This document shows, one piece after another, positions 1 to 13,526 of a stretch of 35,653 nt of DNA. Origin of the DNA: Erysipelotrichales bacterium. Lineage in GTDB: Bacteria > Bacillota_I > Bacilli_A > RF39 > UBA660. The notes under the pieces are model-generated. The model was given only the letters and a program-made list of their open reading frames with translations. It ran no database searches and was not told where the DNA came from. Positions within the stretch are counted from its first letter, which is position 1. Every line of letters starts with the position of its first letter. The stretch is from assembly GCA_022508565.1 (NCBI GenBank), contig JAFLUY010000012.1, positions 1-35,653 on the forward strand, read 5' to 3'. A program made the translations under genes and the position numbers.

Positions 1-55
1 AAATCTCTTGTGCGTCTTCTAATTTCTCTTTTCTTATATCTGGTATTACCTTCAT
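1..55 (-). CDS. 5' end of an unknown gene, cut by the window edge
   Basis: Only the first 18 codons are present (MKVIPDIRKEKLEDAQEI), running off the left edge. The ATG at 55-53 is preceded by a good ribosome binding site (AAGGAG, about 8 bases upstream). The peptide is charged, without a signal peptide or membrane segment in the visible part. No family can be named from so few residues. Its interest lies in its promoter: a nine-G run sits between the -35 and -10 boxes (see promoter entry). It lies directly downstream of the secretion operon but behind a terminator, so it is a separate transcription unit on the same strand. Confidence 0.6.
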   Translation of the reverse strand, partial: MKVIPDIRKEKLEDAQEI

Positions 56-108
56 GTTTATTGTCTCCTTTTTGATTGTTCACTACTCCTGTATTTTTAC
101 CTATTTAT

Positions 109-137
109 AAGATAACATACCCCCCCCCGTTTTGCAA
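109..137 (-). promoter_or_regulatory. Promoter with G9 homopolymer in the spacer (putative phase-variable switch)
   Basis: On the minus strand the -35 box TTGCAA (137-132) is followed by a 17-base spacer made of AAC, nine G (128-120) and TATGT, then an extended -10 (TG-T-TATCTT, box at 114-109). The 17-base spacing is optimal as sequenced. Gain or loss of one or two G by slipped-strand mispairing would change the spacer and so the promoter strength, as known for phase-variable promoters elsewhere. A G9 run is very unlikely by chance in DNA this AT-rich. Confidence 0.6.
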
Positions 138-181
138 GTTTCTATTGTCGAAAAATCAAGAAATTGAAAATTTTTGAAAAC

Positions 182-208
182 AAAAAAAACAGTTAAAAAC
201 TGTTTTTT
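182..208 (-). terminator. Intrinsic terminator of the secretion operon
   Basis: A 6-bp stem ACAGTT/AACTGT with a 3-base loop (189-203), extended by flanking A and T runs, begins at the VirD4 stop codon and ends in a T tract on the minus strand. It separates the secretion operon from the truncated gene at 1-55. Confidence 0.75.
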
Positions 209-2963
209 AATCATCTTCAAAGAAATCATCAAAGAACGCATCATTAGATGTTTGATTTATAACCGTATTATTTGGTTGATTATTCATCTCTTGATTTGTT
301 ATTTGAGGTCTTGTATCAATTATTTCTGGTTGTTTTATTTCAACACTTTGAACTGATGGTTCCGTTTGTTTTTCAACTTCAACTTTTTCTTCAGTTACAG
401 CATTGTTTTCAACTTCTTCCTCTACTTGAGGCACAATAATTGGAGATTTTGGTATATTAGGTACTTCTGTACTAATATCTATTGGATTTTCAATCATTAC
501 ACTTGGTTCGTGTGAAGTTTCTTCATGTTTTTTTAAAAGATCAGCAAAATTTTCTATTTGTGTTGAGTCTTCTTTCTTAGGTTCCTCTTTAACATCTTCA
601 ATTACTGGTGCAGTAATTGGGGTTGTTTCAATTGGAGGATTTTCAACATCAGTTTTAATAATATCTTTATCGTTAAAAGTATTTTCAGTAACTGATGGTT
701 CTAAATTAAATGGATTAAAACCAATATCTGAAACAGGTTCAGCTTTTACTTCTTGAACAGTTGATGAATTATCAACTTTAACAACTGGTTCGTCACTTGA
801 CTCTTTAGTTTCATTAGTACCTAAAATATCACTTGAAGTTTCAATTGGTGTTTTAGGTAATGTTTGTTCCTCTGTATTTGGTTTTGCATCCGTATTTTCT
901 TGAGTTTTTCCACCATTTTTCTTTGCCTCTTCTTCGGCCTTTTCTTGTGCTTCAAGTTCAGCAATCTTAGCATCAATTCTCTTAACTAAATCATCAACAT
1001 CAAATGATGGTAATTTAGGTTTAACTGGTTGCTGTGCAGGATTAATACTTGGATTAATTCCTGGGTTGATGCTAGCATTTTGATTAGCTTGTTGTTCTGC
1101 TGCTTTTTGAGCATTTCTTGCGGCCATAAACTCTTCAAATGTTGGTATTTTGGGTGGTGTACCCATACCACCAAATCCACTACTTGCAAGGGCACCAAAA
1201 TTTGGAGCACCTCCACCAAATGGGTTTGCAGGGTTTTTATCATCAATTCCCATTTTACTACGTTTGCGAACTTTAACAAATTCTAAAACATCGAACAACT
1301 GAATTTCTTTTTTCTCTCTTGTCATTAGCTCTGCTTTAGGATATTTAGTACCCCAGTCAACTGTGTAAGCTTGTACTAATTGAGTTTTAAATGGATGTTG
1401 ACGACTTCTTAAAATGATAACCTCATTCATTTTCATCTTTTGTAAATCAGATACCGTTACTAATGGACGGGATTCTGTTTTATCTTCTTTTTTACTCTTA
1501 ACTTCACCGCATAGTTTAGAAATCTCTTCTAAGGCTGCTAATTCAGTTGTTAAGATATAAATTAAGTTACCACAGTTTGAACGAATAGTTTCTGCATCTT
1601 CTTTTCCATAAACTTCATTTAATTGAGCAAAGTTTTGAATAATAAATGTAAATCTAATTAGTCTTGAACGAGCAGCAGTAACCATTGTTGTAACGTCTTT
1701 TAAAGCTGGCATATTTGCAAACTCATCAAGAATAAAGTTTGTTCTAACTGGTAGTTTTCCGCCATTTTCTTGAGCAACAGATATTAATGTTTCGTAACAT
1801 TGCTTAATGAATATTGTTGCTAAGGCATGATATGTCGTTTTTTCATCGTGAATAATCATAAATACTGCTGTTTTTTCACGACCTATATCACGCATGTTAA
1901 AGTCTGAATATGAAAGCATCTCTGATAGATTTTCACGAGATGAGAAAATACGTATCTTTTGACGGAATGTTGAAAGAATACCACCTTTTGTTTCAGTTGG
2001 TGAATTAATAGTGTTACTTGCAAAAGTATAAGCACTTGATTGTTCACCTTTCATTTTAAAGTATTCTTGAATATAAGTAGATCCTGCACCGAATTTTTCT
2101 TCTCCAACCGTTGTCATATAACCAATTGAATTGATATTAACTTCTTCTTCTTTTGCATCTTCAAGTAATCCTAATGTACATCCTGCAAAGTAGTCTGATG
2201 AAGAGTTTTGCCAGAATGGGTCACTTGGAGCTGTTTTATCCTTAACAATGTTATTAGCAACGTCATCGATAAGTTCAATTGCTTTATCAACATTACCATC
2301 TTTATAAAGTTGATATGGTAAAGTTAATGGATTCCAAGCATTACCCATTTGAGGATCACGGAAGTTAAGAACAATTATCTTATACCCTCTTGCTTTTAAA
2401 AGTTCACCATGGTCTTTATAGATTTCACCTTTAGGATCAGTAAATACCATACTTTCACCATGTTTTACTAAACTATATGTTAGTGGGTCAACAACAGCAC
2501 TAGTTTTACCAGACCCAGTAACTCCGATAACAAGTGTATGATATTCTGAATCATCAACCCACATGTTTTTTCCATCATTAATTAAAACAATTCCACCAGT
2601 TGCAGCTGTTTCATCTTTTACGCCTACTCTAAATACTTTGTAGGCTTTTTTCATTTCTTTTTCTTTTAACCATCTTGAGTATCCTTTTTCTTCCTTTTGT
2701 CCTATTTCTAAACCAATTCCGCCTTTTCTTTCAAAAATTGAAGAGGACACACTAAAGAATATTGCAATAATAACTGCAAAGAATACTAATAAAGTTCCTA
2801 AAATATATTTTCCTGTAAAAGCTTCAAATGGTGATAATCCATAGAATTCACCATCATTTAAAAGGGTAAAAACGTTAAGAACTGCTATTGCACTAAAGTA
2901 TAATAAAAATAAGCAAAAAACACTAAAAATTGCTAAATCTTTGCCTGAAACTTTTAATTTCAT
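207..2963 (-). CDS. virD4: VirD4/TraG-family type IV secretion coupling ATPase
   Basis: A 918-residue coupling protein, the membrane-bound ATPase that recruits substrates to a type IV secretion channel. Two N-terminal membrane helices (about 11-33 and 52-73) are followed by the motor domain with Walker A GVTGSGKT (147-154) and Walker B ILDEFANMP (411-419), both typical of the VirD4/TraG family. From about residue 575 the protein becomes an acidic, Pro/Glu/Thr/Asn-rich, probably disordered tail of over 300 residues with short repeats such as INPGINPSINP. The family is usually 500-650 residues, so this tail is an extra. Start ATG has a GGGAAGGG site. It is the last gene of the operon. The tail may be a docking region; that is inference. 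Confidence 0.93.
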   Translation of the reverse strand: MKLKVSGKDLAIFSVFCLFLLYFSAIAVLNVFTLLNDGEFYGLSPFEAFTGKYILGTLLVFFAVIIAIFFSVSSSIFERKGGIGLEIGQKEEKGYSRWLKEKEMKKAYKVFRVGVKDETAATGGIVLINDGKNMWVDDSEYHTLVIGVTGSGKTSAVVDPLTYSLVKHGESMVFTDPKGEIYKDHGELLKARGYKIIVLNFRDPQMGNAWNPLTLPYQLYKDGNVDKAIELIDDVANNIVKDKTAPSDPFWQNSSSDYFAGCTLGLLEDAKEEEVNINSIGYMTTVGEEKFGAGSTYIQEYFKMKGEQSSAYTFASNTINSPTETKGGILSTFRQKIRIFSSRENLSEMLSYSDFNMRDIGREKTAVFMIIHDEKTTYHALATIFIKQCYETLISVAQENGGKLPVRTNFILDEFANMPALKDVTTMVTAARSRLIRFTFIIQNFAQLNEVYGKEDAETIRSNCGNLIYILTTELAALEEISKLCGEVKSKKEDKTESRPLVTVSDLQKMKMNEVIILRSRQHPFKTQLVQAYTVDWGTKYPKAELMTREKKEIQLFDVLEFVKVRKRSKMGIDDKNPANPFGGGAPNFGALASSGFGGMGTPPKIPTFEEFMAARNAQKAAEQQANQNASINPGINPSINPAQQPVKPKLPSFDVDDLVKRIDAKIAELEAQEKAEEEAKKNGGKTQENTDAKPNTEEQTLPKTPIETSSDILGTNETKESSDEPVVKVDNSSTVQEVKAEPVSDIGFNPFNLEPSVTENTFNDKDIIKTDVENPPIETTPITAPVIEDVKEEPKKEDSTQIENFADLLKKHEETSHEPSVMIENPIDISTEVPNIPKSPIIVPQVEEEVENNAVTEEKVEVEKQTEPSVQSVEIKQPEIIDTRPQITNQEMNNQPNNTVINQTSNDAFFDDFFEDD

Positions 2964-3023
2964 AGTAGCCCTTCCCTTCTTCTTTTAATATTATAACCTA
3001 ATTAGTCACTTTTTTCTATATTT

Positions 3024-3737
3024 TTATTTATTTGCGACACTTATTTTATATGCTACAAACAACCCACCAATAAGTAAAACAAGACCAATTATTGAGAATA
3101 ATATTTTCCCAATTAAACTATTTCTTTTTCTTTTTTTTGCTTTTTCTATTTCAAGTTGTTCTTTTTCTCTTTCTTGTACTATATAATCTGTTAATTTTTC
3201 TTCATCATTTGCTGTTTGTTCTGAATTTTCTTCTTCATCATCGCCAATGATTACCTCATTTTCCTCATCTTCATTAACTGCAGAATTATTGTTATTGTTA
3301 GTAGTATTATTTCCAACTATATTAGAAACTTCATCATTATTTAAAGTAACTTTTGTGTGTGTTTCATTATTTTGTAATGTAACTAAGATAGTGACATCAA
3401 CAATATTAGTTTCTTCATTTATAACAATGTCTGAGGAAACCTTATAATAACCTATTTGATCATCATTTACAACACCATATCGGAAATTATATGGTCCAAC
3501 CGGAACATTTTCCAAACTTAGTGTAAAGTTTTTATCTTTTTCAAGATAATATTCTTTAGAATATTCAGTTGAGTCTTCTAAATGAACTTCAATCCATTCA
3601 ATACGTTCAATATCTACATCTTCACTAAATGCTGTTTTAATATTAACTGAACTATAATAATTAATTGCATAAGTATTTGGAATAAAGATAAAAGAAAAAA
3701 TAATTAATACTAAAAAGCTTAATAATAACTTTTTCAT
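3024..3737 (-). CDS. Exported, C-terminally anchored protein in the secretion operon
   Basis: A 237-residue protein with an N-terminal signal peptide (about 1-24), an extracellular part rich in beta-type sequence (25-130), an Asn/Glu/Asp-rich linker (about 135-185), a basic KKRKR patch and one C-terminal membrane helix (about 210-232). The layout is of a type I membrane protein whose ectodomain faces the wall. I do not recognise a family. Its ATG follows the stop codon of the NlpC/P60 gene directly, with the ribosome binding site AAGGAG inside that gene, so the two are translationally linked. Position suggests a surface or pilus-like accessory of the secretion channel, which is inference. Confidence 0.8.
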   Translation of the reverse strand: MKKLLLSFLVLIIFSFIFIPNTYAINYYSSVNIKTAFSEDVDIERIEWIEVHLEDSTEYSKEYYLEKDKNFTLSLENVPVGPYNFRYGVVNDDQIGYYKVSSDIVINEETNIVDVTILVTLQNNETHTKVTLNNDEVSNIVGNNTTNNNNNSAVNEDEENEVIIGDDEEENSEQTANDEEKLTDYIVQEREKEQLEIEKAKKRKRNSLIGKILFSIIGLVLLIGGLFVAYKISVANK

Positions 3738-5024
3738 CTACTCAACTCCTTTATATCTTAAGAATATTGTAAAACCACTGTAATTTCCTCTTACAACACC
3801 AGTTTTACTACCGGCAGCATGGAACCATTGTCCATTTCCAGCATATATTCCTGTATGGTTATAATTATCACCATCACTTCCCCCTGTTCTTTTTAAACCA
3901 ATATCACCAGGTTGAAGTTCGGATTCACTAATTTGAATAAAATCAGTACCTATTTTGTTGGAAATAGATGCTGTAGTTAAATATCCTGGGTTGCCACCTA
4001 ATCCAGTCCATAATGCCCATTGAACAAAACCAGCACAGTCAAGTCCAGAGGTAGGAATTCCCATAAGACCTGCTGCATGTGGGTGTGATCCATAACTATA
4101 TTTAACTTTAGCAGCAACAGCTGAAGCGGCTGCAGCTATGATTTTTTGTCTAGCACCACTTAAATTTTCAAAGCCACTAATTTCTCCGATTATTTGGCCA
4201 GTTACTTCTTGATCTTCATTATCGAAGAAAAATTCATTAACACCATCTTCTTCAAGTTCAGCTACTTCATCACTGTCGGATTCAACTACATCTAAAAATC
4301 CACCTAACACTGGTGCAAATATACCCATAAAAATCGCTGATAAGAAGAAAAGTAAAGCTGCTACCGGAATTATGACTTTCATTGCCTTTTTCTTAGCATA
4401 ACTTTTTGTTTTTTCAACATCTTTTAAGGCATTTTTACCAGATTCTATTGTACCGCCTATATCACCATTTTTAGCATTACCAACAGTATCTAATACATCA
4501 TTAACTCCATCAGCTAGACCAGCTTCATCAAGTTCTTTTGATACTTCTTCAACTCCTGGTACTTTATCTAGAGAATCAGATACAACACCTAGAGTTTTAT
4601 CAACTGGTTTAAAATTAGCTACATCTTTATCTCTACCAATTGATTGTCCACCAGTAAAGTATGCTGCTGCTCCTCTACCAACGGCTTTTAAAGTCTTTTT
4701 AGTACTTGAATCTTCAACATTACCATCTTCATCAATCTGTTTACCATCGCCAACCTTATCTCCTGGTTTTGGTTCACTTTCTTGAGATTCATTAAAACCA
4801 TTTGGAATACTTTCGTTATTAGACGATTCTCTAGCATCATTTGGATTAAATTGATTATTTTCATTTATTGATTCTGTGTATAGTGCATTATTATTTTCAT
4901 CAATTTCTGGAGTATTTGTTTTTGGTGCATTATTAAGAGATGGATTTACATTGTTAGTTAATCCATTCGCACTAGGTAAACTAGGACCATTAGTTATATT
5001 ATTTGTTAACTTACTTGGATCCAT
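3738..5024 (-). CDS. Membrane-anchored NlpC/P60 peptidoglycan endopeptidase
   Basis: 428 residues. The first 110 are Asn/Pro/Ser/Glu-rich and likely disordered, then a Gly/Asp-rich region, one membrane helix (about 215-243), an acidic stretch, and a C-terminal NlpC/P60 domain (about 295-425). The catalytic Cys is in SGLDCAGFVQW (C330), the His in NHTGIY (H390), with a further His at 402 in WFHAAG. Such enzymes cut stem peptides of the wall; in Gram-positive conjugation systems they open the wall for the channel. The large soluble N-terminal half lies on the inner side of the membrane if the catalytic domain is outside. It is one of two wall hydrolases in the operon. Confidence 0.88.
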   Translation of the reverse strand: MDPSKLTNNITNGPSLPSANGLTNNVNPSLNNAPKTNTPEIDENNNALYTESINENNQFNPNDARESSNNESIPNGFNESQESEPKPGDKVGDGKQIDEDGNVEDSSTKKTLKAVGRGAAAYFTGGQSIGRDKDVANFKPVDKTLGVVSDSLDKVPGVEEVSKELDEAGLADGVNDVLDTVGNAKNGDIGGTIESGKNALKDVEKTKSYAKKKAMKVIIPVAALLFFLSAIFMGIFAPVLGGFLDVVESDSDEVAELEEDGVNEFFFDNEDQEVTGQIIGEISGFENLSGARQKIIAAAASAVAAKVKYSYGSHPHAAGLMGIPTSGLDCAGFVQWALWTGLGGNPGYLTTASISNKIGTDFIQISESELQPGDIGLKRTGGSDGDNYNHTGIYAGNGQWFHAAGSKTGVVRGNYSGFTIFLRYKGVE

Positions 5025-5055
5025 AAAAATACTCCTTCCTAATTTAATTCAAATT

Positions 5056-5556
5056 TTATTCTTTGCCATCAAGACTTATTTTAAAATCCCAAACAGAATT
5101 TTCATAAATTGTAAATTTATAACCTTCTGAATCGACAATTTCTATAACGTGTTCATTCTTGTTAACAAGTCGATATTTTTCAACTTGATTATTTATGGTC
5201 TTAATTGTATTTATCTTATTTATATATTTTTTATATTCTTCTATGTCATTGTTGAATGATTCTTTTGTTTCGTCAGTTAATAATTCATATGCTTTATCAG
5301 CATCCTTAACTTGATACTTTATATAATATGAATAGTATTCATTTAATAAGTCAATTAGTTCAATTGTTACTGGGCTATATTGATTTTCTTCATAAGTATT
5401 TTGTATATATTCAACGTCGGTTGGATTTCCTGGCTTATATTCGATACCCAATTTCCTATTGTGGTATATATATAAGAAGCAGCAAAGACCAACGATAATT
5501 GTTCCGACAATTAAGAATATTTTATTTTCAACAATAAAATCTTTAAGCTTTTTCAT
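5056..5556 (-). CDS. Small bitopic membrane protein, VirB8/NTF2-like
   Basis: 166 residues from the ATG at 5556 (MKKLKDF), which follows a strong AGGAGG site six bases away; an upstream in-frame start at 5586 lacks such a site. One membrane helix near the N terminus (about 11-32) is followed by a soluble domain of about 130 residues with helix-then-strand character. Size, topology and operon position match VirB8/TcpC-like scaffold subunits, whose soluble part has an NTF2-like fold. Sequence similarity is too weak to be certain. It overlaps the end of the preceding, similarly built gene by 14 bases, and the two could be diverged duplicates. Confidence 0.65.
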   Translation of the reverse strand: MKKLKDFIVENKIFLIVGTIIVGLCCFLYIYHNRKLGIEYKPGNPTDVEYIQNTYEENQYSPVTIELIDLLNEYYSYYIKYQVKDADKAYELLTDETKESFNNDIEEYKKYINKINTIKTINNQVEKYRLVNKNEHVIEIVDSEGYKFTIYENSVWDFKISLDGKE

Positions 5557-6079
5557 TACACACCTCCTGATAAGTAGATTTATCAATAGGCATTAAACTA
5601 AATAATGAAGTATTACCATTCATTGTTATTTGATAGTATTTGTCTCCTATTTTATCGCCTGTGTTACTTGCTATTTCAGTTCCTTCTGTAACAAAAGTAT
5701 AAACTCCTTTTTTGATACTTTTTAAACACATAACTTTTGATTCATATGATAGTTGCTTATCTGTATCAGTTAAATAATTTTTTAGATTATTTTTTGTAAT
5801 ATTATTTTTATCTTTATAATTTTCATCTAATATTTTTAAGACAGCATCATAGTCTTTCATATTTAAATAAGAATAATATTTAGTTATAGCAGACTTAATT
5901 GTGTAATATCTATTTCTATCAATTAATTCATTAGAGTTCTTGGCAGTTATACTTTCATATACGTTTTCTTTTTCGCGTTTTACCGTAATTGCCAAAAGAA
6001 TAACTAGTGCAAAAATTAAACATGCAATAATCGCCCAAATACTCAAAACTTTTTTTTGTGATTCACTTATATTAAACAT
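5543..6079 (-). CDS. Bitopic membrane protein, VirB8/NTF2-like scaffold candidate
   Basis: 178 residues: a short cytoplasmic start, one membrane helix (about 13-33) and a soluble domain. That domain has a helical stretch containing YYSYLNMKDYDAVLKIL, then beta-rich sequence ending near QITMNGNTSLFSLMPID. This is the layout of NTF2-like VirB8 subunits that link inner parts of type IV secretion channels. It lies between the wall hydrolase gene and the second VirB8-like gene. Assignment rests on topology and context more than on motifs. Confidence 0.65.
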   Translation of the reverse strand: MFNISESQKKVLSIWAIIACLIFALVILLAITVKREKENVYESITAKNSNELIDRNRYYTIKSAITKYYSYLNMKDYDAVLKILDENYKDKNNITKNNLKNYLTDTDKQLSYESKVMCLKSIKKGVYTFVTEGTEIASNTGDKIGDKYYQITMNGNTSLFSLMPIDKSTYQEVCNEKA

Positions 6080-6090
6080 ATAAAATCCTC

Positions 6091-8421
6091 CTATAGGCCA
6101 AATATGACATAACGTGAATTAACCATACTGCTTGCATTATACATAGCATAAGCCGATTGGTCTTCTGCGTTAGTTGGTGTACAAGATGCTTGTCCCTTTG
6201 TTGAACAACTTGGTCCCGAATTACACACTCTAGATACAAAACTTGCTCTTGTACTACTCATGTACTGACTTATATATGGTAAATATTTACATCCCCCTAA
6301 ACTCCAACTTCCTGGATTATACCAAACTGCACCTATGTAAGCATACTTGCTCATCATTTGTGATACAGTATCATAAGATGAAACAGCATTAGCAAATCCT
6401 CTTATTCCTTCAGCAAGAGATGAATATGTACGGCAGGCTTTTACACCAGCTCCATTTGCACACCCAATACCCCAATAATTGTTGGTACTTCCACCAGGAC
6501 TCATACCTTCTTTTAAACCACGAATTACAACTAATTCTGGATTTACACCATTCTTTATCGACTCATCATATATTAATTCTGCATTAGCAACAAAAACATT
6601 TAAGAATGTTGATGAACATGAATTGCTAATACAATAAGCTCTTAATTTAGCAACAAATTCTTCTTTGTTTAAAGATGTTTCATGAACTGAAAAATCTCCC
6701 GATGGTACACTAGGACGTGGATTAGATGGGTCAGTTGATTCTAATGGATCTACAGCATGTAAAACGTCATTTCCACCTTTTCTAAGTTCGTAGTGTAAGC
6801 ATGGAACATCAGTATTACCAGTAGAACCCACTTTACCGATAAGTTGTCCTTTATCAACACTTACTCCGACACTTACACTTGGATCAATACTAGCAAGATG
6901 AGCATAAACCGTATAGTCATTATTAGGGTGCGCAATAATTATTGTATTTCCATAACCTTCATTACAAGTGTAATCTCCAACTGTACAGTTATCAACAACG
7001 CTTATTACTTCACCACGGTATACTGCTATTACATTAGTTACTCCATCAACACCGGCAATATCAATTCCATAGTGCTCTTCTATTTCGCCAGTTATTGGAT
7101 TTTCTCTTGTTCCAAATCCTGAAATTACATCAGTACTAGCTGGTTCTCCATCAGCATAAATTACTCCATTACGTTCTTCAGTTTCATCGCTACCAATTGG
7201 CCAATAGAAACTTTTTCTAGCTGCCGTTTGCCCTTCTATTACATTATAATCATTTCCATTTATAGGTTGATAAGTAATTTCAAAACCATAGTTTTCTAAA
7301 ATAGTTAAAATATCTTCAATTATTTCTCTTCTTATTTCAATAGCTGTTCCTTCATAACTATTATAAACATCTTCACCTAATGATTCTAAGGAATTTTCAC
7401 AAACCTCATTAGTCATACAATCTACACCGGCAGGGTCTAATATATCTTCTTTAAACTTAATTTGTAAATGTGGTTTATTATCAAAGTATTTATTATAACT
7501 TAAAAAGTCAAAGTATCTATCCGTATTTAGTTGTGGATCATCATTATAAACATACATTGTTTCTTCATTATATAAGCTATCAAAAGTTTTACATGTGTTA
7601 TAGTTTTCATCTATTGGATTTCTTCCTAAGAAAAGTGCCATAATTCCTTTTTCAAACCATGGTAATGTTTCATCATATTGAACTTTACTTATGAAATATT
7701 GCCAAAAACCTAGGCTATTATTAGATATATGATCTACACATTTTTCTCCTCTTTTTGGTAATGTTAAAACCGAACCTTCATCACATTTAGCATATTTATT
7801 ACCATCATCAGTTTCAACATAAATTGGATCTCCGTAAATACCATAACAATCAGTTGTATAAGCAATTAAGTTTTGCACTAATGTTTTAATTGTGTCTGTT
7901 TCATTTTGAAAATATGTTATAATACTTTCATCATTATAATCAATATCTACTTCTGGATCTTCTAAATCAGTTTCATCTATTGTATAAAGTCCTTTATTCT
8001 CACTCGGCTCATATTCACCAATATATTCTTCTCCGGAATCCGAAAACTGAGATGGAGTCATCTCATAAAATACAGTTTCTAATATAATATCATCAACATA
8101 TTCATACTCAGTTGTCCCAGGTATAAAAATACCTTTTTTCTCATATTTAGCCATTAATCTATAAAATTTTTTATAGAATTTTTCTTGGGCTTTCATTATA
8201 GTAAATTCGCAGCTCTCATCTACATTACCTTGTCCATCTTCACAAGATGATTCCCAGAATCCTTTTTTTGTTTCATAGAAACTATCCCAATCGAATTCTG
8301 AAAATTTAAATTGGTAAGCAAAAGTTGAAGCTGTATTAAATAAAAATATCATTGCAAAAAAGGTACAAATTCTTATACCTTTATGCAATAACATTCTTAA
8401 TTTATTTGAGCTTTTTTTCAT
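6091..8421 (-). CDS. Two-domain cell wall hydrolase: M23 peptidase plus glucosaminidase-like domain
   Basis: 776 residues starting at the ATG at 8421, eight bases after AGGCGG. A signal or anchor helix (about 15-36) precedes a 370-residue region of unknown fold with several Cys. The M23/LytM domain (about 425-560) has the HxxxD pair (H450, D454) and YAHL (H508), but the usual HLH motif reads CLHYE: the first, catalytic His is Cys541 while the zinc ligand H543 remains. A C-terminal glucosaminidase-like domain (about 590-745) shows NPELVVIRGLKEGMSP and NNYWGIGC. It plays the part of the VirB1-type hydrolase, opening peptidoglycan for the channel. Whether the M23 domain is active is uncertain. 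Confidence 0.88.
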   Translation of the reverse strand: MKKSSNKLRMLLHKGIRICTFFAMIFLFNTASTFAYQFKFSEFDWDSFYETKKGFWESSCEDGQGNVDESCEFTIMKAQEKFYKKFYRLMAKYEKKGIFIPGTTEYEYVDDIILETVFYEMTPSQFSDSGEEYIGEYEPSENKGLYTIDETDLEDPEVDIDYNDESIITYFQNETDTIKTLVQNLIAYTTDCYGIYGDPIYVETDDGNKYAKCDEGSVLTLPKRGEKCVDHISNNSLGFWQYFISKVQYDETLPWFEKGIMALFLGRNPIDENYNTCKTFDSLYNEETMYVYNDDPQLNTDRYFDFLSYNKYFDNKPHLQIKFKEDILDPAGVDCMTNEVCENSLESLGEDVYNSYEGTAIEIRREIIEDILTILENYGFEITYQPINGNDYNVIEGQTAARKSFYWPIGSDETEERNGVIYADGEPASTDVISGFGTRENPITGEIEEHYGIDIAGVDGVTNVIAVYRGEVISVVDNCTVGDYTCNEGYGNTIIIAHPNNDYTVYAHLASIDPSVSVGVSVDKGQLIGKVGSTGNTDVPCLHYELRKGGNDVLHAVDPLESTDPSNPRPSVPSGDFSVHETSLNKEEFVAKLRAYCISNSCSSTFLNVFVANAELIYDESIKNGVNPELVVIRGLKEGMSPGGSTNNYWGIGCANGAGVKACRTYSSLAEGIRGFANAVSSYDTVSQMMSKYAYIGAVWYNPGSWSLGGCKYLPYISQYMSSTRASFVSRVCNSGPSCSTKGQASCTPTNAEDQSAYAMYNASSMVNSRYVIFGL

Positions 8422-8439
8422 GTTATTCACCGCCTAGTT

Positions 8440-10233
8440 CTATAGACCTCCACCAGAACCAAACGAATCTAATTCGTCTTGAGTTAATATAACGTTAATA
8501 TTCATACGTCGAGATCCACAGATAAATAATGCTTGTCCTTGTGTATATTGTTTAATTGCCTCTTTTTCATTATCATTTAAGTCAACTAGTAATGCTAAAT
8601 CTTCAACAGCCTGTTTACGAAGCCCCATAATTAAGTAGTATGAAGCATTGTCGAAAATTGCTTTACCATGCATGATAACTCTTTCATCAGCAAAGTCTGT
8701 TGGTTGTTGAGTAATAATAATTGTACCAGTGTTGTATTTTCTTGCACGTCTTTGCATTTGTGCTAAATATTCAGCACCTAATTCATTATTGCCTGCAAGC
8801 AAGATGTGTGCTTCATCAACCATCATAACTGTATTTTTATTTTTATCTAAACATAATCCCCAAGCATATTTTAAAATGTTAAAGAATAGTGCATTACGTA
8901 TATTAGCATCACTGTTCATAACTTCTTTGATATTAAATACAATGAAGTCTGTATCAGGATTAACTGTTGTATGACCATTGAAATAATATCTTAATTCATT
9001 AACGAATGGTCTTACACGTAGCTCTAATCTTTCCATTACATCTCTTTCACGAGTTGCCTCAGGCATTGATAGAAGTTTTCCTTTAATAGTTGTATAAACA
9101 TCATCGAATGTTGGATAATTTTCAGGAGTAAAGTTTGCAAAGTTTGTATCAAAATCTATTCCAAAGCGTTTATATGTTTCTTGAACTATTTCTGAAAACA
9201 TAGCTAGAACATCTTCTTCAATAGAAGGTGTATAGTATTTCATAAATGCTTTTATTGATTGTAAGGCTCTAGTTAAAACTGTATAACCTAAACCTTGTGA
9301 TAATTCTTCTTCATCAGAGTCAACAATTACTTCAAGTGGATTTATTAAACCAAATGAGCCACCTTTACCTAAATCAACATTTGTTCCGCCATTAGTACGA
9401 CAAATATGTTCAAGTTCACCTTCAGGATCAATTGCGACAATTTGATAACCATTACGTATATGATTTCTTAAAAGCAACTTAGCTGCAGTTGATTTACCTG
9501 AACCAGATGTACCAAGAATAATCATATTAGCATTGTTTCTATTGTGTTCTTTTCTTATTTGATATAAGAATTGGTTGAATAAAACAACTCCACCAGAATT
9601 ATCTAAACCAAATAGAGTTGATAATCCAGGGTCTTTAATGCTATCAAAAACAAATGGATACATTGCAGCTATTGTTGGAGCTGGAATTGGTATACCAATA
9701 CGCTCTTCAACATCTTGTTTAGGAAATATTGGAAGCATACTTTTTAATACTTTTTCTTGTTCAAACATCATTGGAATTGCTCTCATATTTAATGATGTTA
9801 AGAAGTTTTTAATTTGTAATTTTTTAGAATCAAGTTCATCTTTTGAATCAGCAGTAATCATGATATGTAATTGAAAATCATAAATCTTTGATTGAGTAGC
9901 TGCTAACATATTAACGAAATCTTCCATTGATTCATAATCAAGTCTTAATCTTTCTTTTAAGGTATGATCATTTTCTTTTTGATAAGCTTCTTTTAATTCT
10001 GCTATTTCTTTATTGATAGTCTTAGTCATTGTTGAAAAAGCAATTGGTATATGTTTAACAACAACTTTTGCACCAGGTATATTAGAAATATTACTTAAGA
10101 AACCATAACCTATAGCTTTAGGATATTCTAAAACTGTTAGAATTGTAGCATATTTATCACTTATCATAAACTCATTAATTTTGAAATTAAGTCCTTTTGG
10201 AGCAATTTCTGATTTTAAATTCATCTTAGACAT
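8440..10233 (-). CDS. virB4: VirB4/TraC-type secretion ATPase, motor part
   Basis: 597 residues. Walker A GTSGSGKST (241-249) and Walker B VMMVDEAH (469-476) are typical of VirB4, the conserved ATPase that energises type IV secretion assembly. The first 230 residues match the second half of the usual VirB4 N-terminal region. Its ATG overlaps the stop of the preceding 197-residue gene by 8 bases (ATGTCTAA), with only a weak ribosome binding site, so it is probably translated by coupling. Together the two products add up to about the normal VirB4 length of 800, suggesting a split gene. Confidence 0.93.
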   Translation of the reverse strand: MSKMNLKSEIAPKGLNFKINEFMISDKYATILTVLEYPKAIGYGFLSNISNIPGAKVVVKHIPIAFSTMTKTINKEIAELKEAYQKENDHTLKERLRLDYESMEDFVNMLAATQSKIYDFQLHIMITADSKDELDSKKLQIKNFLTSLNMRAIPMMFEQEKVLKSMLPIFPKQDVEERIGIPIPAPTIAAMYPFVFDSIKDPGLSTLFGLDNSGGVVLFNQFLYQIRKEHNRNNANMIILGTSGSGKSTAAKLLLRNHIRNGYQIVAIDPEGELEHICRTNGGTNVDLGKGGSFGLINPLEVIVDSDEEELSQGLGYTVLTRALQSIKAFMKYYTPSIEEDVLAMFSEIVQETYKRFGIDFDTNFANFTPENYPTFDDVYTTIKGKLLSMPEATRERDVMERLELRVRPFVNELRYYFNGHTTVNPDTDFIVFNIKEVMNSDANIRNALFFNILKYAWGLCLDKNKNTVMMVDEAHILLAGNNELGAEYLAQMQRRARKYNTGTIIITQQPTDFADERVIMHGKAIFDNASYYLIMGLRKQAVEDLALLVDLNDNEKEAIKQYTQGQALFICGSRRMNINVILTQDELDSFGSGGGL

Positions 10234-10819
10234 CAGTCATCACCGTCCCAAACTCTGTTCTCTTAGAATCATTAAAGAAACTATCGAGTAATACTCTTGC
10301 ATCATCTTCTGTAATTTGTCTGGCATTTAGTCCAGAGGCAGCAAAACCACCAATTATATTGTGAATTCTTTTTTGAATTCTTTCTTTATTTTTGGCATCA
10401 TCTTTAAATAATAGATAAAATTCTGTATCAACAGCATTTATTTCTGGGCCAATAAATAAATCTATTTTATTTAAATCTTGCAAAATTAATTTTCTAATTT
10501 GTTGAGTTGGTGCATCATTATATTTGATTTCAAGTTCAGATCGATATAGATTAATATCCACAGGTCTATCACAACAAATCAACCAGAATTCATAATCGAT
10601 TGTATTATAAAAATTTCTTAAAGCAGTTATAGTCATGTTTTGTGTTTCCATGTCTGATATAAAAATATTTTTTGGTTCAATCCTTACACCAGTAACAATT
10701 TGATCACCTTCTAAAGCACGCCCAGGTACAGTTATGTATCCTCCTTGCATACTTTTTATAGGTAACCAATCTTCACTATACTTACTTGTTTCACTTTTCA
10801 CTACTTGCTTCTTCGCCAC
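10226..10819 (-). CDS. TraC-like N-terminal part of a split VirB4
   Basis: 197 residues, apparently starting at GTG (10819) inside the end of the PrgI gene. The protein has no membrane helix. It contains the pattern seen at the N terminus of Gram-positive VirB4/TraC proteins: a short strand region with WLPIKSMQGGYITV, then EPKNIFISDMETQNMTITALRNFY and a conserved-looking RQITEDDARVLLDSFFN end. The next gene is the VirB4 motor and overlaps it by 8 bases. I infer that this is the VirB4 N-terminal domain encoded separately. A distinct accessory protein is the alternative. Confidence 0.68.
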   Translation of the reverse strand: MAKKQVVKSETSKYSEDWLPIKSMQGGYITVPGRALEGDQIVTGVRIEPKNIFISDMETQNMTITALRNFYNTIDYEFWLICCDRPVDINLYRSELEIKYNDAPTQQIRKLILQDLNKIDLFIGPEINAVDTEFYLLFKDDAKNKERIQKRIHNIIGGFAASGLNARQITEDDARVLLDSFFNDSKRTEFGTVMTDV

Positions 10820-11114
10820 TTGTCATACACCATCCTTTCCAATAATAGGTTCTTCTTCTGCTAAGATAATGATAAATATTAGCAGTTAGATTCCAAACAT
10901 TTCTATGATTAGGTACGGGAGCCACCATTGCTGCTGAGATCAAAAGTGGCGTTAATATAATACCTATATCTTGGATTGTTTCAGCGTCAACTATAAACAT
11001 CATCATTAATGTTATAAACCCGCCAATACCGACTATTATTAAGTCTACTGGTGTAAACAAGCCCAGTATCAACATTGACCTTTTAGAGTTTGCGGGAATC
11101 AAATATTGATTCAT
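10791..11114 (-). CDS. PrgI-family membrane protein (VirB3-like)
   Basis: 107 residues with two membrane helices (about 14-41 and 49-67) and a conserved-looking C-terminal segment with HYLSRRRTYYWKG. These are the features of the PrgI family, the small inner-membrane component that precedes VirB4 in Gram-positive conjugation operons and corresponds to VirB3. It starts 21 bases after the VirB6-like gene and ends in TGA, overlapping the next gene by 29 bases. Confidence 0.85.
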   Translation of the reverse strand: MNQYLIPANSKRSMLILGLFTPVDLIIVGIGGFITLMMMFIVDAETIQDIGIILTPLLISAAMVAPVPNHRNVWNLTANIYHYLSRRRTYYWKGWCMTSGEEASSEK

Positions 11115-11135
11115 GTTAACTCCTCCTTTTTATTC

Positions 11136-13526
11136 TTATTTAGCTTTATCTCCAGATGAAGATCCTGAATCTCCACTTCCACCACTGCTAGATTGTGATG
11201 AGAAACTACTAGCTGAATCTTGTTGTTGTTGTTTTAATGCGCTAGTCATTGTTCTAGTATCAGTTAATTGAGTGATAATATCGTTCATTGCTTTGATATC
11301 AGCACCAGATAATTGTGGATCTAAATTTCCATTTGCATCTTTGTGAGATGCTTTTGTAAGTAAAGATTGGATAGTATCTTTCATATCCACACCATTTTTA
11401 TCAATTAAATCCATTGGAGATTTTTGCATTTGCTCTAATGCTTTATTTAAAGCATTAATTGTATATTGTTGACCAGCAGGTGTACCCATTAGTACGCTAG
11501 CAACTTTATCATTTCTTTGAGACTTAGCTTGATCAATTAACTTCTTAGCTTGATCATATTTGTTAAATGCTTCTTTGTTCTTTTGGAATTCTTCAAATTG
11601 TTTATTATAAGATTCCATAGCTCGATCATAAGCATCTTTATTTGCATAATTACCAATTTTTGGTCGTTGTACATTGAATGTGCCTGGGTCAGTACGAACT
11701 GTTGATGTATTAACAATTTTTTGTAAGTCTTCAATTTGTGTAGTTAAATCTTTAGTTTTATCTTTAGTAGTATCCTTAAGATTTTTAAGTACATTGATAA
11801 TTGAAGTTAATGACTCATCAGTTTGATTATTGGCAGCACTGTCAGTATAAATAATATTTTTGAAATCTTTTCTTTCTTTGCTAGCATCTTTAATATTACC
11901 AACAACATCATCTTTAAATGATCCTACATTGCTTCCAACATATGACAATGTATTAAGTGCTTGATTTTTAGCTCTTTCTGGTAAGCTACTACCAGATTTT
12001 CCGATAAGAGCTTTATTCTTCAAGTATTCAACTGTATTTTCGCTGTATTCTTTTAACTTATCATTATCATTAAAGTTTTTATTTGCTGCATTAGCACCAG
12101 TAATTTGTGCTTGTCTTATTGCATCAAGAGATACGTCAGTTAATGCTGTTTTCTTTTGTTTAGCAGCAGCGACAACCCCTCTTAAGGCAAAAGGCATAGC
12201 TTTTAATCCACTTCTTATTGCATGAGGATCGTTAGTTGCATCCAGCTGTGCATGTCTATTAGCTTGATTTTGACGATGGAATTCACTTTTCCATGCACCA
12301 ACCATTGCATTTGCTTTTCCAGCACTCCACATTAATGCTTTATTTTCCGTTAAACGATCTTTAGCATGATTAGGTAGTGGATTAAGTTTAACTCCAGATA
12401 GCAAGTTTCCACCAACTGAGAACAATTCTTTAAATAGCGCTGGTGCATCTTGACCAAATTTTAAAATACCTAAAATTAGAATAACTGTTGCAACACATTT
12501 AGTAAATGGTCCAGCGACACTGCTATTTTGAGAACTGAAGATAATACCAATAAATACTGGAATTAGTTTTACTATTTCTAACGCAAAGAAGATAATTGCA
12601 ATACGAATAAATAATTCTAAATATGTTTTCTTCATTTGGTTAATCCAAGCTTCATATGATTTCTTTGTATTTGGGAAAATTCGTAAAATTACTGGAATTG
12701 GTGAAATAAGTTGTAATACACCAAGTTTTACAGCACGAACACCAATATCAATTGCATATAGGAAGAATACCCAAGCAACTGCTAAAGCTGCTACTGATGA
12801 GATAACCCATGTATAAGTCATAGTATCTCCAACCCAGTGTCTTAATTTCTTTTCATTCCATGTTAATGCTTTTACCCCTGCTTTTCCTTTTATATCGGCA
12901 AGAGATTCAACATACAAATTACATGTTTTATCGTGAGATTTACCATCTTCTTCTTCTGTTTCTTGGTTACATAGTTCGACTGCGTCTCCCCTAATATCTC
13001 CATTTTCATCAAAGAATGTATTATAAGTTGTTCCATTTGGATGAAAAAACGAGATTAAAACCATAATTGCAACATTTTTTCCTGGATTATCGTTTTCGGA
13101 ATCTTGTCCGTTATTACCTAAAATAATTGCTGGAATTGTATTATTTTCAAGTACATGGAATTGGAACATTGCCATATATCTAAAAATAAGCGGCATAACA
13201 ATTAATAAAATAATTGAGAAAAGTGTATCTTTAACTACTTGAGACGATGCTCCTTTACCTTTTCCGTCCGGATCAATTACGAGCATTATTAACTGATATG
13301 CAAATACAAACACCATTATTATTGATATAATCATATATAGTCTTTTTGTAATTTCAGTATATAGAGTTTGACCAGCTGTTCCTCCGCCAAATAAATCTAT
13401 TTGAGCAACAGCATAAAAAATATTGTAAGCAACTGTAAGTAATCCATAGCAAACTGTATCTAATAAACCAATGAAAAGATCAGTCATCGTATTGAAAAAC
13501 CAGCTACCAATCATCGGGAAAACCAT
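11136..13526 (-). CDS. TrbL/VirB6-like polytopic channel protein
   Basis: 796 residues, first gene of the secretion operon. The N-terminal 385 residues hold six or more membrane helices with a roughly 80-residue soluble loop (about 140-220) and a segment containing RAVKLGVLQLISPIPVI typical of TrbL/VirB6 channel subunits. The remaining 400 residues are hydrophilic, largely helical, and end in a Gln/Ser/Gly-rich tail. The long soluble C-terminal half resembles the extended VirB6 proteins of Gram-positive systems. ATG at 13526 has a clear AAGGAG site. Promoter and palindrome lie just upstream. Confidence 0.87.
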   Translation of the reverse strand: MVFPMIGSWFFNTMTDLFIGLLDTVCYGLLTVAYNIFYAVAQIDLFGGGTAGQTLYTEITKRLYMIISIIMVFVFAYQLIMLVIDPDGKGKGASSQVVKDTLFSIILLIVMPLIFRYMAMFQFHVLENNTIPAIILGNNGQDSENDNPGKNVAIMVLISFFHPNGTTYNTFFDENGDIRGDAVELCNQETEEEDGKSHDKTCNLYVESLADIKGKAGVKALTWNEKKLRHWVGDTMTYTWVISSVAALAVAWVFFLYAIDIGVRAVKLGVLQLISPIPVILRIFPNTKKSYEAWINQMKKTYLELFIRIAIIFFALEIVKLIPVFIGIIFSSQNSSVAGPFTKCVATVILILGILKFGQDAPALFKELFSVGGNLLSGVKLNPLPNHAKDRLTENKALMWSAGKANAMVGAWKSEFHRQNQANRHAQLDATNDPHAIRSGLKAMPFALRGVVAAAKQKKTALTDVSLDAIRQAQITGANAANKNFNDNDKLKEYSENTVEYLKNKALIGKSGSSLPERAKNQALNTLSYVGSNVGSFKDDVVGNIKDASKERKDFKNIIYTDSAANNQTDESLTSIINVLKNLKDTTKDKTKDLTTQIEDLQKIVNTSTVRTDPGTFNVQRPKIGNYANKDAYDRAMESYNKQFEEFQKNKEAFNKYDQAKKLIDQAKSQRNDKVASVLMGTPAGQQYTINALNKALEQMQKSPMDLIDKNGVDMKDTIQSLLTKASHKDANGNLDPQLSGADIKAMNDIITQLTDTRTMTSALKQQQQDSASSFSSQSSSGGSGDSGSSSGDKAK

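Follow-up and report, generated by a model that had tools for sequence, protein, structure and literature searches.

The nine-G run close to one end of the window analysed here is best read, judging from its sequence context, as part of a candidate multi-locus slippage switch that adjusts the promoter spacing of surface genes. In other words, gaining or losing single G residues probably turns the coat proteins of these bacteria on and off. The window (35,653 nt) makes up all of contig C4 in a genome of 1.69 Mb assembled in 37 contigs. We consider it likely that this locus works like a promoter-spacer contingency locus, i.e. a phase-variable promoter tuned by slippage.

Promoter anatomy and copies of the element

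The earlier note on this DNA had placed a nine-G run within a promoter spacer, and this is borne out by the bases themselves. On the minus strand, window positions 109-137 read TTGCAA-AAC-GGGGGGGGG-TATGT-TATCTT, so that the tract lies between putative -35 and -10 boxes, and TTGCAA, the 17 nt with G9, TATCTT, AGGAGA and ATG can all be read directly. The features, all on the minus strand, are as follows:

132..137, minus strand: -35 hexamer TTGCAA, the same in 6/6 genomic copies of the element
120..128, minus strand: G9 tract, G on the coding strand, within the promoter spacer (from the sequence; the G8+ runs of the genome are confined to this element)
115..131, minus strand: promoter spacer AAC-G9-TATGT, 17 nt (from the sequence)
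109..114, minus strand: -10 hexamer TATCTT, with the extended -10 TG at 117..116 (from the sequence)
64..69, minus strand: ribosome binding site AGGAGA (from the sequence)
55..53, minus strand: start codon ATG, whose frame leaves the contig end (from the sequence)
1..55, minus strand: truncated gene, first 18 codons, with DNA identical to the start of the gene for a 2,751-aa protein on contig C3 (from sequence comparison)
68..141, minus strand: dispersed promoter element, approximate extent, 82-83% identical to copies on C6, C9 and C23, with shorter matches at the starts of C18 and C23

The run had also been called exceptional in this AT-rich DNA, and the counts agree. All other G or C runs of the window are 1-5 long, the G9 being the sole longer one, and dinucleotide shuffles give an expectation of 0.07 G8 runs per window; the run is therefore exact, longer than chance would produce and not accidental. 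Genome-wide, an independent-base estimate predicts about 0.6 runs of G8 or longer in 1.69 Mb. They are observed in five places, all of them within the one ~65-bp promoter element. The -35 and -10 boxes of the window promoter match the consensus only moderately, and a consensus scan requiring 9/12 matches misses this promoter (shuffles gave a mean of 1.1). Since the scan made no call, the case for a promoter is built on the conserved copies and the relatives rather than on a consensus score.

When the first 240 bases of the window were used as a query, six further genomic matches were obtained, five of which are the promoter element (C6 at 22 kb, the end of C9, the starts of C18 and C23, and C23 at 171 kb) and the sixth the start of the C3 gene. 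A search with the pattern CTTGCAAAACGGGG(G/A)GGG yields six genomic copies, the window counted in. The window tract is 9 long, four other places have a tract of 8, and C6 has an interrupted 9 (GGGGAGGGG); judged from these sequences, the distance between -35 and -10 is 17 nt in the window, 16 nt in the G8 copies and 18 nt in the GGGGAGGGG copy. Because a single ~55-bp sequence, which is found inside C23 as well, is common to the end of C9 and the starts of C18 and C23, there are at least three distinct G8 loci. Related promoters also occur with no tract. At 49 kb of C12, a paralog promoter has an unchanged TTGCAA and a -10 box much like the others, but TGACTAATGG stands where the tract would be, and paralogs on C35 and C1 have related TTGAAA..TATCTT promoters from which the tract is absent. 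Judged by this conservation, the predicted promoter is present with or without the tract, and since the tract-less paralogs keep the same or related -35 and -10 boxes, the tract has the appearance of something inserted into a functioning promoter. The element in this genome is a ~65-bp promoter cassette ahead of several surface genes. Its exact form (TTGCAAAACGGGG..) was found in 0 of 97 relatives and in 0 viral contigs, and 13 matches in public genomes were all discarded as unrelated chance matches. Since the exact element was not found in relatives, its flanks are genome-specific and the architecture alone is common.

The genes that follow the copies on C6, C9 and C23 encode paralogous surface proteins with N-termini resembling MKKKNIIVLIVLLAIGFAAVTTTLLINGT; of these, the one from C6 contains a BspA-type LRR region and the one from C9 a Listeria-Bacteroides repeat. 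The first 55 nt of the window gene are those of C3:31334 (G000:C3:31334-31388). The gene there encodes a PASTA/Ig-like surface protein of 2,751 aa, in which a PASTA domain and a hydrophobic segment are accompanied by stretches rich in Asn and Thr and by weak fn3-like matches. This gene start thus stands at window 1-55 and at C3:31334-31388 behind two differing upstream regions, a contig fork that may represent either paralogs or alternative arrangements. Contigs break 55 nt into repeated gene starts in another case too (C35 versus C34), which suggests a k-mer fork between paralogs.

The earlier note had proposed a surface, effector or secretion-linked role for the truncated gene. The surface part stands, in that the gene start is common with that of the PASTA protein and the other copies precede surface proteins. 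The link to type IV secretion was rejected: the gene next to the element on its upstream side codes for a coupling protein of the ordinary conjugation type (PF02534), and the link is positional only, because elsewhere the element follows unrelated genes, namely ligA, a sigma factor gene and a lipoprotein-like gene. The neighbourhood itself, window 207-13526, is a conjugation-type operon with a VirD4/TraG coupling protein, NlpC/P60 and M23 peptidases and a TraG-like AAA ATPase. Further along, an ORF at 16919-18097 matches the mTERF family in Pfam (7.6e-14), which is unusual in a bacterium.

Poly-G promoters and their products across the family

Runs of G8 or longer are present in 84 of 117 family genomes. 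The strict pattern TTGACA-N0-12-G7-N0-8-TATNNT gave 562 matches in 98 of 386 family genomes, a number that counts some sites twice through alternative -10 boxes, and the reversed pattern gave 1. Some genomes of 1.4-1.7 Mb have about 50 strict-pattern matches, the maximum being 54 (G178). G runs fetched with no promoter selection also lie mostly between -35 and -10 boxes: a promoter score of at least 9 of 12 was reached by 34 of 56 runs on the G strand versus 3 on the complementary strand and 3 in reversed sequence, and a score of at least 10 by 24 versus 0 and 0. In these 56 runs G is almost always on the coding strand. Slippage alone does not demand such a strand preference; the G run might contribute to promoter function, or the birth of tracts might be biased.

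The trait is not confined to one family. In a class-wide sample the strict pattern was also present in families f7, f18, f19 and f21 (in f21, 11 of 21 genomes), it was rare in f12, f13 and f16, and it was not found in the sampled genomes of several other families. Within the genus of the window, two genomes (G002 and G006) carry tracts ahead of the same surface-protein family with differing flanks. The trait is nevertheless patchy, since G8 runs are absent from 5 of 9 genomes in the genus. In viral contigs, TTGACA..G8..TATAAT matched 6 times versus 1 for the mirrored pattern, too few to say that phages use it. As a separate observation, three G9 runs of G002 (L114, L129 and L130) seem to be intragenic or near acyltransferase-type membrane genes and are possibly frameshift tracts.

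The promoters with tracts almost always stand ahead of genes for surface or secreted proteins. A same-strand ORF of at least 100 aa starts within 200 nt in 76 of the 81 runs with enough sequence, and 65 of these 76 proteins have a hydrophobic N-terminal segment versus 12 of 30 window proteins; hydropathy was assessed only crudely, and the window proteins, which include those of the membrane secretion operon, are if anything a high control. Matches in Pfam and NCBIfam include camelysin, LRR_5, prepilin motifs, glycine-rich and Listeria-Bacteroides repeats and UDP-galactopyranose mutase, with BspA/LRR adhesins also among them, and any one named family covers few of the downstream proteins. In G342 (C6:7500-27400, L247), seven secreted-protein genes spaced by ~2 kb each have a nearly identical poly-G promoter with G8 or G9.

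Tract length, promoter spacing and competing explanations

The earlier note had taken the tract to be phase-variable, and in relatives the tracts of comparable promoters do differ in length. Across the 186 sites listed from 64 genomes, tracts are 7 to 16 long. Sites with identical flanks within one genome form 15 groups, and the G count differs in 13 of them, where the compared tracts are different loci of one genome rather than alleles and assembled homopolymer lengths may err by one. For example, one group has lengths of 9, 10, 11, 11, 13 and 14 (G020), another 9, 10, 10, 10, 11 and 11 (G359), a tandem array of three surface genes has G9, G11 and G10 (G143), and seven promoter copies in 20 kb have G8 or G9 (G342).

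The spacers point in the same direction. In tract-less promoters of the same loci the spacer is 17-18 nt in 18 of 32 cases, and in promoters with tracts it is 18-20 nt in 55 of 71, 16 nt in 8 and 17 nt in 1. The difference between the two classes, counted as 17-18 versus 19-20 nt, is significant (Fisher p = 6e-6), a value that is optimistic since the test pools related promoters. Our reading is that most assembled alleles miss the optimum by one or two bases, so that losing or gaining as many Gs would bring them to it. The window copy, with a spacer of 17 nt, would be predicted to be active.

These observations together suggest a simple mechanism. The G tract would be the variable part of the promoter, slippage would add or remove Gs, and the number of Gs would set the distance between the -35 and -10 boxes and thereby change expression. 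We infer that slippage occurs at a high rate, that spacing affects expression and that surface diversification is the purpose. What the sequences themselves show is the spacer position of the tract, its repetition, its exclusive location in this genome, the length variation, the off-optimum spacers and the surface products. Across the family, the same architecture recurs with differing flanks, and the surface or secreted proteins under such promoters, which number up to tens in a genome, would be governed by a multi-locus set of contingency switches. With less confidence, we are inclined to believe that this small-genome, AT-rich lineage uses poly-G spacers as a general switch module, its cassettes having been copied ahead of numerous genes for surface, pilin-like and secreted proteins that are unrelated to one another, and most loci being kept one or two bases off the optimum so that single slips switch them on.

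Part of the same evidence could be explained by a fixed operator or structural signal, in which a regulator or unusual DNA on the coding strand would coordinate a surface-protein regulon and length differences would reflect drift or assembly noise. The strong preference for G on the coding strand, the 55-bp identical copies within one genome and the tracts of the fetched G002 sample, which are 8 or 9 only, fit such a signal. However, lengths from 7 to 16 that differ at identical-flank sites inside single genomes do not, the flanks vary between genomes and genera, unlike those of an operator, and the tract-less paralogs retain the promoter. We therefore regard a fixed signal as unlikely.

Still less probable is that the element serves as a recombination site, with promoters and gene starts exchanged by site-specific or homologous recombination and the G run being incidental. 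It is true that contigs stop both at the 55-bp identical element (C9, C18 and C23) and at the common gene start (C3 and C4), and that the sequence preceding one gene start exists in two unlike versions. Nonetheless, breaks at 55-nt repeats, seen for C35 versus C34 as well, are the expected outcome of short-read assembly with paralogs, there is no inverted-repeat pair around 109-137, and the tandem arrays of relatives have one promoter per gene. An invertible promoter was considered separately and found no support: in window 1-400 the only inverted repeats are a terminator-like hairpin and a weak pair, which lie to the same side of the promoter. Finally, dark-cycle G runs of two-colour Illumina sequencing or an assembly error can hardly account for the tracts: one relative does have, at a contig end (G004:C15, L265), an adapter-like sequence followed by A10 and G22 that is probably a two-colour artefact and calls for caution when G runs are counted, but nothing like it was seen at the promoter tracts, whose runs have unique sequence on both sides and whose one promoter context recurs in hundreds of places in many genomes, the mirrored control being nearly empty.

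Known tract promoters and significance

The slippage switch proposed here has several partial counterparts. In porA and opc of Neisseria and in fim of Bordetella, poly-G or poly-C tracts between or close to the -35 and -10 boxes precede genes for surface proteins; such promoters occur once or a few times per proteobacterial pathogen and in both G and C orientations. The likeness is a G/C homopolymer at the promoter of surface genes, whereas here the G orientation is found almost always. In the vlp system of Mycoplasma hyorhinis, as described in PMC10502178, the length of a homopolymer in the promoter region sets the transcription of lipoprotein genes to ON or OFF (Citti and Wise 1995, cited therein). 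There too, surface-protein genes each have a promoter homopolymer; however, the tract is poly-A and serves a single gene family, whereas the poly-G tracts described here stand ahead of surface proteins with no relation to one another, a single genome having up to tens of such loci, and the lineage is not known as a group of pathogens. In the vmm system of Mycoplasma mycoides, the number of repeats in the promoter spacer controls a surface lipoprotein (Persson 2002, as described in PMC10502178); the repeat changes by dinucleotides at one gene, in contrast to single-G differences at many loci here. In the gut commensal Bifidobacterium breve, slippage of G tracts at pilus genes was measured directly (PMC9187656). 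The tracts studied there lie in coding sequence and switch the reading frame of two pilus clusters, unlike the promoter-spacer tracts described here; the same paper also mentions promoter-spacer tracts, giving no details. The mechanism of promoter slippage is thus known from vlp, and its scale here appears to be unreported in the open papers searched, none of which describes sets of poly-G promoters in these bacteria.

The family concerned is large, probably uncultured and apparently little-studied. A 2025 review of phase variation poses the question of why genomes rich in phase-variable loci seem to be restricted to pathogens, or whether this is a bias of the databases (PMC11868660). Many candidate phase-variable loci in such a family bear on that question. 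If our reading is true, these would be among the largest promoter-based sets of phase-variable genes known, in organisms not recognised as pathogens. If slippage is confirmed, the presence of a gene alone would not reveal which surface proteins are displayed to host or phage, and surface diversity would be measurable in existing metagenome reads through G counts per promoter.
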